Shown here: positions 60,067 through 64,000 of the stretch, one piece after another | Numbering within the stretch: position 1 is the stretch's first letter | Layout of the letters: each line of letters opens with the position of its first letter | Source: Chryseolinea lacunae | GTDB lineage: Bacteria > Bacteroidota > Bacteroidia > Cytophagales > Cyclobacteriaceae | DNA length: 64,000 bases | Assembly: GCF_016735595.1 (NCBI RefSeq) | Contig: NZ_JAERRB010000001.1 | Span: forward strand, 806,001-870,000 | Direction: 5' to 3' | Notes under the pieces: model-generated | The model's input: the letters and a program-made list of their open reading frames with translations, nothing else | What the model was told of the DNA's origin: nothing | Databases searched by the model: none | Made by a program: the position numbers and the translations under genes

Positions 60067-60504
60067 TTAGTTAACTTTGATGGTTGTCTTTACGATCTTC
60101 TTCTCATCCTTGGGCACGGTTATCTCCAGGATGCCATTGTTGTATTTTGCTTCGATCTTCGTCGCGTCAATGTTTTCGGGCAACGAGAACGAACGGTTGA
60201 AATTGCCATACTGCGATTCCACCACATGCAGGGTCGCTTCTTTTCTCTCCTTCGAGAATTTGCGCTCGCCGCTGATGGTTAAAAAGTTGTCGTTCAAATC
60301 GATCTTGAAATCTTCTTTGCTAAGACCAGGAACGGCCACGTGAACCTCATAAGCCTTGTCGGTTTCCACGATGTCGACTTTGGGAACGAACGAGTACGAA
60401 GAACCTCCGCCGCGGGTCAGCGAATCGTTGAAAAACCGGTCGATCAAATTGCTGAATGATGTGGGTGTGTAATCATTCGCGGTGCTATAACGTACGATAC
60501 TCAT
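60067..60504 (-). CDS. Small heat-shock protein, Hsp20/alpha-crystallin family
   Basis: 145 residues from the ATG at 60504. The alpha-crystallin domain begins at about residue 40 (FVPKVDIVETDKAYEVHVAVPGLSKEDFKIDL). FLTISGERKF and the C-terminal NGILEITVPK (the GxLxxxxP motif) followed by the IxV-like IKVN tail complete it. It is an ATP-independent holdase oligomer in the cytoplasm. A 21-residue longer frame exists upstream, but the short start fits the family. No HrcA-type CIRCE repeat is visible in the leader. Confidence 0.95.
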   Translation of the reverse strand: MSIVRYSTANDYTPTSFSNLIDRFFNDSLTRGGGSSYSFVPKVDIVETDKAYEVHVAVPGLSKEDFKIDLNDNFLTISGERKFSKERKEATLHVVESQYGNFNRSFSLPENIDATKIEAKYNNGILEITVPKDEKKIVKTTIKVN

Positions 60505-61051
60505 ATGATTTTTATTTTTTTGTTGAACATGTTTTCGTGTTACAGATACCCTATAAGGGAAAAGCATGCCGGCACGATTTTGAGCTCATTTTAATGTCAT
60601 TATGGCTTGTTTTGAAAGAAATAGCACTTAAAATAAGACAGCATGGCAGTTTTATCCTGTTAAATGGTCATTCTTTGACGGTCCGTTTATCCGAGCACGA
60701 GTGAGTTTCTCTGAGAAGATTCTGAGTTCAGAAATGGTCGTATCCATTCCCAGGACAAAAGGGTCGTTTATCCATTGTCCCTTCACATGGTATAGCATTG
60801 GGGAAGACATAACGCCATGGCTACCCGTCGATGTGAATATCGGACACATGACGTTGCCTCTATCGATTGTCTGGAGCTTCAAGAAAAAACAATTCTGAAA
60901 AAACGGAGACGATGTGCTGGCTCGTTTCGATAGGCGTCACCGCATTTTCCCTGGGGAAATCGACTTATTTAAGTTTCCATTGATTTTTTGCAGGTTCTCA
61001 AAGTCGGCTCTAAAAAGAGTAAACAACATGGGTGATGGAAGAGCAAAAAAC
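60505..61051. other. AT-richer gene-poor region between hsp20 and tRNA-Asn
   Basis: About 550 bp with lower GC than its surroundings, as judged by eye. Two short antisense-overlapping frames (60652-60882 minus, 76 codons; 60701-60898 plus, 65 codons) have no recognisable family, and neither has a convincing start context. The hsp20 promoter lies at its left end. It may be a decayed gene or foreign remnant beside the tRNA. Confidence 0.5.
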
Positions 61052-61090: not shown

Positions 61091-61093
61091 TTG

Positions 61094-61167
61094 CTCCTCC
61101 TCTTGGACTTGAACCAAGGACCCTCTGATTAACAGTCAGATGCTCTAACCAGCTGAGCTAAGGAGGA
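61094..61167 (-). tRNA. tRNA-Asn (anticodon GTT)
   Basis: 74 bases. Acceptor TCCTCCT pairs with AGGAGGA, discriminator G. D arm GCTC / GAGC; anticodon arm TCTGA-CTGTTAA-TCAGA; variable GGGTC; T arm CTTGG-TTCAAGT-CCAAG. Anticodon GTT reads Asn codons. The CCA end is not encoded. The terminator lies just downstream. Confidence 0.97.
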
Positions 61168-61318
61168 ATGCTTAAAAAGGAGTGCAATATTAAGGACTTG
61201 TGAGGCAAAGTTCCAACCCTGGACTAAAAAAATTTTAAGAGAATATTTCAGCGTGAGATAATGCTCAAAAACATTCTCCAAACACGTCGTGCAACCTTGC
61301 GGGAATGGATACGTTGAC

Positions 61319-61326
61319 TAACTTTG
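61319..61326 (+). promoter_or_regulatory. -33/-7 promoter (TTG 19 bp TAACTTTG) of the 6-TM/regulator operon
   Basis: TAACTTTG is an exact -7 box; TTG at 61297-61299 lies 19 bases upstream, the same spacing as at rpmE2. The palindrome AAAGTACTTT begins six bases further on. Confidence 0.65.
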
Positions 61327-61332
61327 CAACTC

Positions 61333-61342
61333 AAAGTACTTT
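61333..61342. promoter_or_regulatory. Putative operator 1: palindrome AAAGTACTTT
   Basis: Perfect 10-bp palindrome six bases after the -7 box and three bases before the ATG at 61346, so it covers the transcript start. The 17 bases from the palindrome through ATGA are identical to those at 62293-62309. Confidence 0.6.
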
Positions 61343-61345
61343 CAG

Positions 61346-61969
61346 ATGAAAGAAATCCAGGAATACGAAAAAGACCTCGCCTCCATTCGCACCATGATGG
61401 AGCGCTCTGCGAAATTCATTTCCCTCAGCGGTCTCTCGGGCGTGTTGGCCGGCCTCTATGCCCTGGCAGGCGCAGCAGCTGCCTATTTCACCGCACACTA
61501 TCCCATCTCGCCCCTCAAGTTCCGAATCTTCTCCATACGCGAAACCGACACCCTATTGAAATTGGTCATCATTGCCAGTCTCGTGTTGGGCGCATCGCTG
61601 GCCACCGGGTTCTGGCTCAGTGCCAAGAAAGCAAAAAAACAAGGGTTGAAATTGTGGACCTCGTCGAGCAAACGCATGCTGGTGAACATCGCCATTCCAC
61701 TGGTGTCCGGCGGTCTCTTCATTCTTATACTATTGTATACCGATCACTTCGGATTGGCCGCGCCGGCCAGCCTCATCTTCTATGGCCTCGCCCTCATTCA
61801 AGGCAGCGCCAACACGTTTGACGAGATCCGGTATCTGGGCTTTTCCGAAATCATTCTCGGTCTGGTTTCAGCACTCATCCCAGGCTATGGCCTCATCTTC
61901 TGGTCGCTTGGATTCGGTGTGCTGCACATCGTGTACGGCACGATCATGTATAACAAATACGACAAGTGA
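61346..61969 (+). CDS. Hypothetical 6-TM membrane protein paired with winged-helix regulator
   Basis: 207 residues. A soluble N-terminal helix (1-24, EIQEYEKDLASIRTMMERS) is followed by about six TM helices from residue 25 (SLSGLSGVLAGLYALAGAAAAYF) to the end (IFWSLGFGVLHIVYGTIMY). A positively charged loop (LSAKKAKKQGLKLWTSSSKR) lies in the middle. No catalytic motif is visible. Its stop overlaps the regulator's GTG start (GTGA), so translation is coupled. Paired genes of this kind are common in Bacteroidota; the membrane protein may modulate the regulator, which is inference. Confidence 0.88.
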   Translation: MKEIQEYEKDLASIRTMMERSAKFISLSGLSGVLAGLYALAGAAAAYFTAHYPISPLKFRIFSIRETDTLLKLVIIASLVLGASLATGFWLSAKKAKKQGLKLWTSSSKRMLVNIAIPLVSGGLFILILLYTDHFGLAAPASLIFYGLALIQGSANTFDEIRYLGFSEIILGLVSALIPGYGLIFWSLGFGVLHIVYGTIMYNKYDK

Positions 61970-62265
61970 AGAACCCGTTCGAAAATTTAGACAAAGCGCT
62001 TGAGCATCGCATCCGCCTTCAGATCATGTCGGTGCTGGTGACCAACGACGCGTTTGAATTCAACGCGCTGAAAGAAATGCTGGGCGTGACCGACGGCAAC
62101 CTTGCCTCGCACATCAAAGCACTCGAACGCGAAAAATACCTCACCATTTCCAAATCGTTTGTCGATAAAAAGCCAAACACAAAATACAAAGCCACCGAAC
62201 GCGGGCGAACGGCGTTCAAAAAACACCTCGATGCCCTGGAGGCCGTGGTGAAACAACAAAAATAA
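61966..62265 (+). CDS. Winged-helix transcriptional regulator (HTH_34 type)
   Basis: 99 residues, starting at GTG within the upstream gene's stop (GTGA overlap). The start NPFENLDKALEHRIRLQIMSVL is followed by the recognition part FNALKEMLGVTDGNLASHIKALEREKYLTI and the wing SFVDKKPNTKYKATERGRTAF. This is the winged-helix family close to MarR/ArsR without effector-binding extension. Two palindromes at the starts of the flanking transcription units are the natural candidates for its binding sites. Confidence 0.93.
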   Translation: MKNPFENLDKALEHRIRLQIMSVLVTNDAFEFNALKEMLGVTDGNLASHIKALEREKYLTISKSFVDKKPNTKYKATERGRTAFKKHLDALEAVVKQQK

Positions 62266-62292
62266 TTTTTTTATCCATTCACTTTGAAATTG

Positions 62293-62302
62293 AAAGTACT
62301 TT
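62293..62302. promoter_or_regulatory. Putative operator 2: palindrome AAAGTACTTT
   Basis: Same perfect palindrome, six bases after a -7-like TCACTTTG (62279-62286) and three bases before the ATG at 62306. Position, spacing and flanks (CAGATGA) match operator 1. Confidence 0.6.
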
Positions 62303-62305
62303 CAG

Positions 62306-62815
62306 ATGATTTATAAGATTCACTCCCGACTGTTGGCCATTAAAGTTCTCTTGTTGTGGCTTGCCTTGCTGAATGTTGTCACCGTTGGCCTGGACTATGG
62401 ACAGCGTCTGTTGTTGTGGCTTTGGGACAGACTTCGAAGCCTTGGTGTGAAAACATTTCTCCGCAGCCTGGTGTCGCGCTACCTGCTCTATGTCACGTTG
62501 ATCAACAGCGTGCCCGTGGCCGTGTTGGGATGGCTCTACTTTGGCAACTACGTGGTGCTGGCTGCCATCATCTCGCTGCATCAATCGAAGTGGTGGGCGA
62601 TCTATAAACTGCTGGCTCTAGTGGTCGCGTTGTGCCACGCGGCATACTCGATTGTGTTGCTGCGGCGAAGAAGCATTCCGCTGCTCTATTTTGTTTCGTT
62701 GCTGGTGGCGTTCATGCCGTTTGTCTATGCCTACTGGATGTATCAGGACCAGGTGCTCGCCTATCAGTTCCATCCCTATCCGCTCAATGTGTTGTCGATC
62801 CTCATTCATCATTAA
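62306..62815 (+). CDS. Hypothetical membrane protein, second unit of the palindrome regulon
   Basis: 169 residues with about four to five TM helices: near 12-32, 55-72, 76-92, 98-118 and 124-145. It has a basic loop (LWDRLRSLGVKTFLRS) after the first helix and a hydrophilic C-terminal tail rich in His, Pro and Tyr (VLAYQFHPYPLNVLSILIHH). I do not recognise a family. It shares the operator with the regulator operon and is followed 12 bases later by the radical SAM gene, so the two are cotranscribed. Confidence 0.82.
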   Translation: MIYKIHSRLLAIKVLLLWLALLNVVTVGLDYGQRLLLWLWDRLRSLGVKTFLRSLVSRYLLYVTLINSVPVAVLGWLYFGNYVVLAAIISLHQSKWWAIYKLLALVVALCHAAYSIVLLRRRSIPLLYFVSLLVAFMPFVYAYWMYQDQVLAYQFHPYPLNVLSILIHH

Positions 62816-62827
62816 TGCAAATCGCTT

Positions 62828-64000
62828 ATGAATGTAAAAATGATTTTACCCGCCCTCACCGAAGCCGAAAGTCCGTTTTGGAGGCCCATCAAGTATTCGC
62901 TCTTCCCGCCCTTGGGACTGGCCACGCTGGCCGCCTATCTCTCACCCGACGACACCGTATGTCTTCAGGACCAGCACGTCGAAAAAGTTGATCTCAGCGA
63001 CACACCCGACCTGGTGGTGATTCAGGTCTACATCACCAACGCCTATCGAGCCTATTCGTTTGCCGACCACTATCGTGCAAAGGGTGTTTATGTTATTCTC
63101 GGCGGCCTGCACGTCACATCGCTTCCCGAAGAAGCTGCGCAACACGCCGATTCTATTTTTCTTGGACCGGGCGAAGAAACGTTTCCGCAGTTCCTGAAAG
63201 ACTTCCGCGCAAAGCGGCCACAGAAAAGATATTTTTCGGCCACACGTTCGCTGGTACACGTTCCGCCCATTCGCCGCGAGTTCATCAAACGAAATCTCTA
63301 CCTGGTGCCCAACTCCATCGTGGTCACACGGGGCTGTCCGCACCATTGCAACTTCTGCTATAAGGATGCCTTCTTTGAAGGGGGCAAGTCGTTCTATACC
63401 CAAACCGTTGACGCTGCGCTCGCGGAGATCGACCGGCTGCCCGGACGTCATCTTTATTTTCTGGATGACCATTTGTTGGGCAACGTGAAATTTGCATCGG
63501 CCCTGTTCGAAGGCATGAAGGGTATGAACCGCGTGTTTCAATCGGCGGCCACAGTCGACTCCATTTTGCGCGGTAACCTCATTGAACAAGCTGCCGAAGC
63601 CGGCCTGCGAAGTTTGTTTGTGGGCTTCGAAACCTTCTCGCCCGAAAATCTAAAACAAAGCAACAAAAAACAGAACCTTCTCAAAGACTATGAACGCGCC
63701 GTGAAGCGCCTCCACAGTCTTGGCATCATGATCAACGGCTCCTTTGTGTTCGGACTCGACGACGACGACCAGGATGTTTTTAAGCGAACCGTCGCGTGGG
63801 GTGTTGAGAACAGCATCACCACCTCCACCTATCACATCCTGACACCCTATCCCGGCACCTCGCTCTATGCAGACCTGAAACGCGAAGGAAGAATAATGAC
63901 CGACAACTGGGATTTGTACGACACCCGGCACGTGGTTTACAAAACCAGAAAGCTTTCGCCTCAACAATTGGAAGAAGGTTATCACTGGGCCTACCGCGAA
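62828..64000 (+). CDS. B12-binding radical SAM protein, truncated by window edge
   Basis: 391 codons from the ATG at 62828 to the last base, with no stop; the end lies outside. An N-terminal cobalamin-binding-like Rossmann region (about 1-135) has FPPLGLATLAAYLS, VVIQVYITNAYRAYSFAD and VILGGLHVTSLPEEA. The radical SAM core starts at about residue 160 with RGCPHHCNFCY, the CxxxCxxC [4Fe-4S] motif; HLYFLDDHLLGN and GLRSLFVGFETF follow. INGSFVFGLDDDD and TPYPGTSLYADLKREGRI are later core elements. Such enzymes carry out methylations or rearrangements of unreactive carbons. The substrate is unknown. It is the second gene after operator 2. Confidence 0.9.
   Translation, partial: MNVKMILPALTEAESPFWRPIKYSLFPPLGLATLAAYLSPDDTVCLQDQHVEKVDLSDTPDLVVIQVYITNAYRAYSFADHYRAKGVYVILGGLHVTSLPEEAAQHADSIFLGPGEETFPQFLKDFRAKRPQKRYFSATRSLVHVPPIRREFIKRNLYLVPNSIVVTRGCPHHCNFCYKDAFFEGGKSFYTQTVDAALAEIDRLPGRHLYFLDDHLLGNVKFASALFEGMKGMNRVFQSAATVDSILRGNLIEQAAEAGLRSLFVGFETFSPENLKQSNKKQNLLKDYERAVKRLHSLGIMINGSFVFGLDDDDQDVFKRTVAWGVENSITTSTYHILTPYPGTSLYADLKREGRIMTDNWDLYDTRHVVYKTRKLSPQQLEEGYHWAYRE

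Follow-up and report, generated by a model that had tools for sequence, protein, structure and literature searches.

A putative winged-helix switch of inner-membrane genes in Bacteroidota, with an operator that overlaps the -7 box

In many bacteria of the phylum Bacteroidota, the same sequence boxes occur at the same two places around the same gene, which encodes a small winged-helix protein, and this points to a widespread switch of inner-membrane genes. We describe it from a window of 64,000 nucleotides of Chryseolinea lacunae (contig NZ_JAERRB010000001.1, positions 806,001 to 870,000), the window being the whole stretch of DNA that was analyzed, and from comparison with related genomes. The switch is apparently undescribed: We found no account of its operator or regulon among the papers listed in searches of the open-licence PubMed Central literature.

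Four genes of the locus lie on the plus strand of the window. A 207-aa hydrophobic membrane protein (61346-61969; here "6-TM protein," the presumed partner of the winged helix) is followed by the putative 99-aa HTH_34 winged-helix regulator (61966-62265), whose GTG start is overlapped by the last 4 bases of the 6-TM gene. Behind these lie a 169-aa hydrophobic protein with no family match (62306-62815) and a B12-binding radical SAM protein of 471 aa (62828-64000; PF04055 and PF02310), which ends beyond the window at L040:10243. CreD comes after the radical SAM gene, past the window end (L040:10288-11718; NF008712, 476.5 bits). The gene content is as the original prediction had it, with a hydrophobic protein and a winged helix in one unit and a membrane protein and a B12-binding radical SAM protein in the other.

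Two sites on the plus strand precede these units. Sequence and conservation place a putative operator of three half-sites, ACTTTG-N5-CAAAGT-ACTTT, ahead of the 6-TM gene (the U site, ACTTTGCAACTCAAAGTACTTT, 61321-61342), and a second putative operator, identified from its sequence, lies behind the regulator gene (the D site, ACTTTGAAATTGAAAGTACTTT, 62281-62302), its inner half reading GAAAGT with G for C. The -7 box of the U promoter, TAACTTTG, occupies 61319-61326 and contains ACTTTG, the left of these half-sites; the corresponding box of the D site, TCACTTTG, begins at 62279. Ten-base palindromes lie at 61333-61342 (U) and 62293-62302 (D), and 17 identical bases, AAAGTACTTTCAGATGA, lead into the ATGs at 61346 and 62306. 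Both boxes and the 17 common bases leading into the start codon had been reported in the original prediction and were confirmed.

The ten-base palindrome taken by itself is unenriched in the host genome (11 places in 7.9 Mb vs. 25 for the reversed control), and in the window it gives three matches at up to one mismatch vs. 1.25 expected. Palindrome and left box together occur at three places in the 7.9 Mb, vs. none for the reversed control. These comprise the reported pair and one site before an XrtN-system VIT gene: This third putative operator lies on a different contig and stops 21 bases short of that gene (TIGR04477, 905 bits), and exosortase N (TIGR04476, 329.8 bits) comes next (the pair at L037:4836-8783). 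When the composite is allowed up to three mismatches, the signal is lost (31/40 matches by strand vs. 77/60 for the control). A relaxed three-half pattern yields 4/1 by strand vs. 4/5, including two weak extras that do not rise over the control, and the exact dyad alone yields two places, both already known, vs. six for the control. The strict regulon of the host genome is small, with three putative operators; the two-unit regulon first proposed is in this way extended by the third operator and by CreD.

Across genomes, the boxes accompany the winged-helix gene. The pattern ACTTTG-N4..7-AAAGTACTTT is found in 146 of 291 genomes of the host's order, and its reversed control, among the matches listed, once each in nine genomes; in the phylum set of 395 genomes, ACTTTG-N5-CAAAGTACTTT is found in 80, with zero reversed-control matches among those listed. 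We searched for the winged-helix protein in the phylum set (395 genomes) and in 194 genomes of the host's order. Phylum orthologues, defined as matches listed at about E 5e-19 or better plus 15 genomes of the host's order, are present in 142 of the 395 genomes; in the order, 113 genomes matched at E 1e-10, three of which have only weak matches and were not called orthologues. Motif and orthologue occur together in 79 phylum genomes, the motif alone in one (G496), the orthologue alone in 63, and neither in 252 (P = 3e-42, Fisher's test); the same four counts for the order are 79, five, 31, and 79 (P = 3e-22), both P-values overstating independence, since the genomes are related. The comparative data strongly support the proposal of a regulon with autoregulation, far more so than the window alone: The winged-helix gene accompanies the motif in 79 of the 80 phylum motif genomes. 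The original prediction would have been undercut by boxes that are frequent where the regulator family is missing. For the composite this is not seen, as few motif genomes are without the orthologue (1/80 in the phylum and 5/84 in the order); the bare palindrome does occur at eight other places in the host genome.

The linkage extends to position. Outside the host's order, 94 of the 115 listed sites lie within 1.4 kb of the winged-helix gene, and every one of these is on the same strand as the gene. Relative to the regulator gene, 38 are 620-750 bases before it, in front of the 6-TM gene, 43 follow the regulator gene by 14-40 bases, and 13 are placed elsewhere. Within the host's order, 59 of the 98 listed sites in searched genomes are near the winged-helix gene, again all on its strand. 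The 6-TM and winged-helix genes themselves occur together at many loci. We also picked 80 loci by protein alignment alone, not by the motif (the best 80 of at least 575 relatives, including Ohtaekwangia, Pedobacter, Mucilaginibacter, Sphingobacterium, Flavobacterium, Aquimarina, Gramella, and Balneola). With up to two mismatches, the U site is present in 79 of the 80 and the D site in 73 (one locus not scorable), and the reversed motif never has fewer than three mismatches at either place. The strict motif is absent in 63 of the 142 phylum orthologue genomes. The order has 31 genomes with an orthologue and no strict motif, and loci were fetched from 20 of these and from 10 such phylum genomes (L316-L325); sites with one to three mismatches are present in 10 of the 11 fetched order genomes that also have the 6-TM gene and in all 10 from the phylum. 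Both genes occur without a recognizable site in L277 (best, seven mismatches).

In profiles of the 79 U and 73 D sites, CTTTG, AAAG, and CTTT are nearly invariant, the spacers are A/T, and C precedes AAAG in 90-91%. The 51 imperfect sites (one to four mismatches) hold 63 substitutions, of which 24 affect the two bases at the junction of the inner and third halves and 14 the C that opens the inner half. Nine of the fetched genomes of the host's order have the winged helix without a 6-TM gene (absence judged within stretches of 5-6 kb). Seven of these carry the dyad with one or two mismatches no more than 90 bases before the regulator (reversed control, three to five mismatches at best), with no third half-site beside it; L273 and L276 have no dyad within those 90 bases. 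The third half-site is also absent in L279 and L281, where the 6-TM gene is present. Because the substitutions cluster on the junction and the C, and because 6-TM-less lineages keep the dyad without the third half, the core of the predicted operator is most likely the dyad ACTTTG-N5-CAAAGT, with half-site centers 11 bp apart, and the AAAGTACTTT palindrome would most likely be the inner (right) half of this dyad plus an extra third half-site. The bare palindrome was rejected as the whole operator: At eight of its 11 genome places there is no left box at the spacing of the composite, and the 6-TM-less lineages with the dyad minus the third half also speak against it. What stands of the palindromic operator of the original prediction is its place within a larger element, in which the -7 box forms one half of the dyad and a third half-site is added. 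Since the -7 box by itself constrains ACTTTG to some extent, the regulator does not account for all of its conservation.

Promoters recognized by the main sigma factor of Bacteroidota have a TTG element at -33. Their -7 box is TAnnTTTG (PMC9723704). The U site of the window has this pattern, with TTG at 61297-61299 on the plus strand, in line with the profile of 79 U sites, and the TAnnTTTG-type TAACTTTG. The D site of the window does not: Its box reads TCACTTTG, and TTG is missing where it would be expected; it has an AnTm tract, AATTTTTTTA, at 62264-62273 on the plus strand. The same division runs through the comparative set. Among U sites, TTG lies within -27..-21 in 71 of 79 (the -24..-22 profile being T90/G54 or T41/G49) and T is at -2 in 78; one of the 73 D sites has the TTG, 41 have T at -2, and 71 have an AnTm 8-mer without a TpA step at -16..-9. 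The 8-mer is found in two of 79 U sites, nine of 57 detached sites, and 14 of 15 further D sites. The detached sites, drawn from the matches listed in 61 fetched loci, some of them sharing one locus, exclude sites that lie within 1.5 kb of a 6-TM or regulator gene or no more than 50 bases from the start of a locus; they are nearer the U type (TTG in 35 of 57, T at -2 in 51). By these elements, the predicted U promoter is the canonical one of the phylum, and the predicted D promoter is of another type, with the AnTm tract and without the -33 TTG. The two boxes had been proposed as a matching pair; both sites are real, but the promoters are not equivalent, the D site also having a weak -7 box.

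The tract of the D site is a strongly conserved promoter-proximal element without a settled explanation. D sites displaced by roughly 40-830 bp from the regulator stop keep it, and it alternates between forms such as ATTTTTTTTA and AAAAAAATTTA, the latter with only three U's. Because the tract moves with the operator and switches form, the selected feature seems to be DNA shape, as judged from these sequences, and not an RNA U-tract. No hairpin precedes the D tract on average (mean z 0.12; minimum free energy [MFE] of -6 or lower in three of 73). A U-tract terminator at the D site is weakened by the displacement and the three-U forms and is kept as a rival below. The gene behind the D site is co-directional in 71 of 73 cases, and the other two may be simple gene-caller faults. 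At seven detached sites of one family (f26; L289, L291-L294, L296, and L297), a conserved hairpin with a T-run directly adjoins the operator; it resembles an intrinsic terminator (MFE -9.3 to -13.6) and overlaps the expected -33 region.

Many of the predicted targets are inner-membrane proteins, among them CreD, DUF4153, DUF1361, and exosortases. At 78 loci, the first gene of the co-directional run behind the regulator is CreD in 27 and, in 18, a member of a 152-aa family whose Coq4 match falls below the cut-off; a hydrophobic family of 94-188 aa (six), DUF1361 (five), a 104-aa family (five), and DUF4153 (three) also occur. CreD is among the first four co-directional genes at 53 of the 78. At detached sites, one of the next three genes belongs to a family also found behind D sites in 43 of 57 cases, a count for which the reference proteins come partly from the same sites; the families include CreD, DUF4153, DUF1361, XrtN-VIT, exosortases, DUF2809, and MPAB-like proteins. 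Five of the 57 are unlabeled. One of these (L101) precedes a DUF1361 gene overlooked by the gene caller, and two form a pair in L103 before an ABC-transporter-like ATPase; in this pair (L103:4515-4814), operators lie close together on both strands. Exosortase O or its kin stand behind the same operator in L119, L123, and L125. Since exosortases N and O or kin are found behind the operator, the regulator may control exosortase sorting.

The regulator matches HTH_34 (PF13601) over profile positions 1-80 of 80 (99.2 bits, cut-off 27); its score for the PadR family is 17.2 bits, under the cut-off of 27. A monomer structure model (pLDDT 92.9) has 1ub9 as its best fold match (TM 0.85), followed by the PadR protein Rv3488, and by sequence 1ub9 is the sole match in the PDB at E 0.001 (E 4.6e-12). 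The segment TDGNLASH, in which each position is invariant or at least 90% conserved among 34 orthologues, is probably the recognition helix; its conservation is consistent with the nearly invariant operator. The AlphaFold2 model of the 6-TM protein, of good confidence (pLDDT 87), has an N-terminal helix (2-28) and then six helices (30-51, 67-98, 106-131, 135-154, 160-177, and 179-206). Its fold has no PDB match under E 0.001, and the window's own protein has no Pfam family at E 0.1. The 47 members of its family show scattered weak Pfam matches and no convincing family, DUF308 being the commonest (10 of 47, best E 0.0018). Among the best-conserved parts of the protein is the start region, with consensus EIRxxMERSSRFxSLSGLSG.

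From the positions and conservation of the sites, the co-occurrence of motif and gene, the promoter elements, and the shared target families, we infer binding, dimerization, repression, a direction of signaling, and a role for the 6-TM protein as follows. The regulator, probably a dimer, would bind the two half-sites of ACTTTG-N5-CAAAGT, which are spaced by about one turn of the helix and are abutted by the third half-site ACTTT. The left half-site would lie on the -7 box and the remainder over the expected transcription start, so that the bound regulator would shut the promoter. It would repress its own unit of 6-TM protein and regulator (negative autoregulation), the unit that follows (the 169-aa membrane protein with the radical SAM enzyme and CreD), and the third unit on the other contig (XrtN-system VIT protein and exosortase N). 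The 6-TM protein is most likely a sensor, as its gene linkage suggests, and would hold or release the regulator according to the state of the inner membrane. We consider this whole reading, a winged-helix repressor on the dyad with a three-unit regulon and a 6-TM sensor, to be likely. Counting against it are the one mismatch in the inner half of the host D site, the orthologue genomes without the strict motif, L277, the few motif genomes without the orthologue, the share of ACTTTG conservation owed to the -7 box, and the relaxed three-half pattern of the host genome, which does not exceed its control. The sites could also be bound by a different factor of equal phylogenetic distribution. A broader version is more tentative, and we lean slightly away from it: a two-protein envelope-sensing system throughout the Bacteroidota with about a dozen mobile target families, inner-membrane proteins in many cases, an operator on the -7 box, two promoter types, and maybe a conditional roadblock. 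That the canonical promoter would then serve the regulator and the AnTm-tract type its neighbors is held with the same reserve.

The D site might instead be chiefly a roadblock, at which the bound regulator stops read-through from the 6-TM and regulator genes on the tract, the downstream genes being reached only when the operator is free. The -33 TTG is missing from all but one of the 73 D sites, the -7 box begins with its T in 41 of them, and the tract is mostly right behind the regulator stop with no hairpin before it (mean z 0.12). The tract also sits about where a blocked polymerase would presumably hold the RNA end, and repressor roadblocks are known in bacteria (PMC10310618). We nevertheless find this account unlikely: Displaced D sites (roughly 40-830 bp) keep the tract, several as AAAAAAATTTA with three U's; the conserved property is an AnTm run free of TpA steps, a feature of DNA shape; and downstream start codons often come a short way past the operator, just as they do at the U site.

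It is more doubtful still that the winged helix activates these promoters, or that it is simply one more target of some other factor that occupies the sites. Two further HTH_34 genes of the host genome score over the Pfam cut-off (G000:C29:195104 and G000:C23:74817), a point in its favor, but both lie on other contigs, their proteins are only 32-36% identical to the locus regulator, and the co-occurrence tracks the orthologue of the locus; the overlap of the dyad with the -7 box and the expected start fits repression. Chance sharing of a common promoter shape of the phylum has some basis in that TAnnTTTG is itself the main-sigma -7 box (PMC9723704). This we regard as a negligible prospect, given that reversed-motif counts are zero among the matches listed and that the motif is tied to one gene at fixed positions.

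Among known systems, the closest parallel is the HAAS-PadR dyad, proposed to handle membrane stress in place of a two-component system, in an account that mentions uncharacterized 6-TM partners (PMC11237479). In both cases a stand-alone winged helix is encoded beside a membrane-protein gene, here with a 4-base overlap, and by analogy the 6-TM/winged-helix pair may work like such a dyad, although a HAAS domain was not found in the partner: DUF1700, DUF1129, and DUF1048 are absent among the 25 of 37 Pfam families listed for the 47 members. The winged helix here also differs in belonging to HTH_34, its PadR score of 17.2 lying below the cut-off of 27 despite the fold match to Rv3488, and the available part of the HAAS-PadR account (PMC11237479) gives no operator, whereas one is proposed here. 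In Proteobacteria, activation of CreBC raises creD expression (PMC4689548). CreD is likewise a main predicted target here, but the putative regulator is a winged helix whose operator would cover the -7 box. The best match to the regulator in both sequence and fold, 1ub9 (PH1061, an HTH_34 protein of Pyrococcus horikoshii), is archaeal. We know of no targets of PH1061; for the locus regulator, a target set and an operator are proposed.

To our knowledge, an operator has been defined for few regulators of the Bacteroidota, an abundant phylum. In this case, a single winged helix, its putative operator, and a target set can be named together for many genomes. The candidate targets include families of unknown function (DUF4153, DUF1361, and the 188-aa, 414-aa, and 104-aa families) as well as CreD, B12-radical SAM enzymes, and exosortases N and O. 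A shared regulon would give these families a common context and, with it, a testable question: which membrane condition they answer. Shortly before the U promoter of the window, on the minus strand, lies a tRNA-Asn (GTT) gene (61093-61167), and a small heat-shock (Hsp20-like) gene, judged by eye from its translation, lies at 60067-60567 on the same strand.
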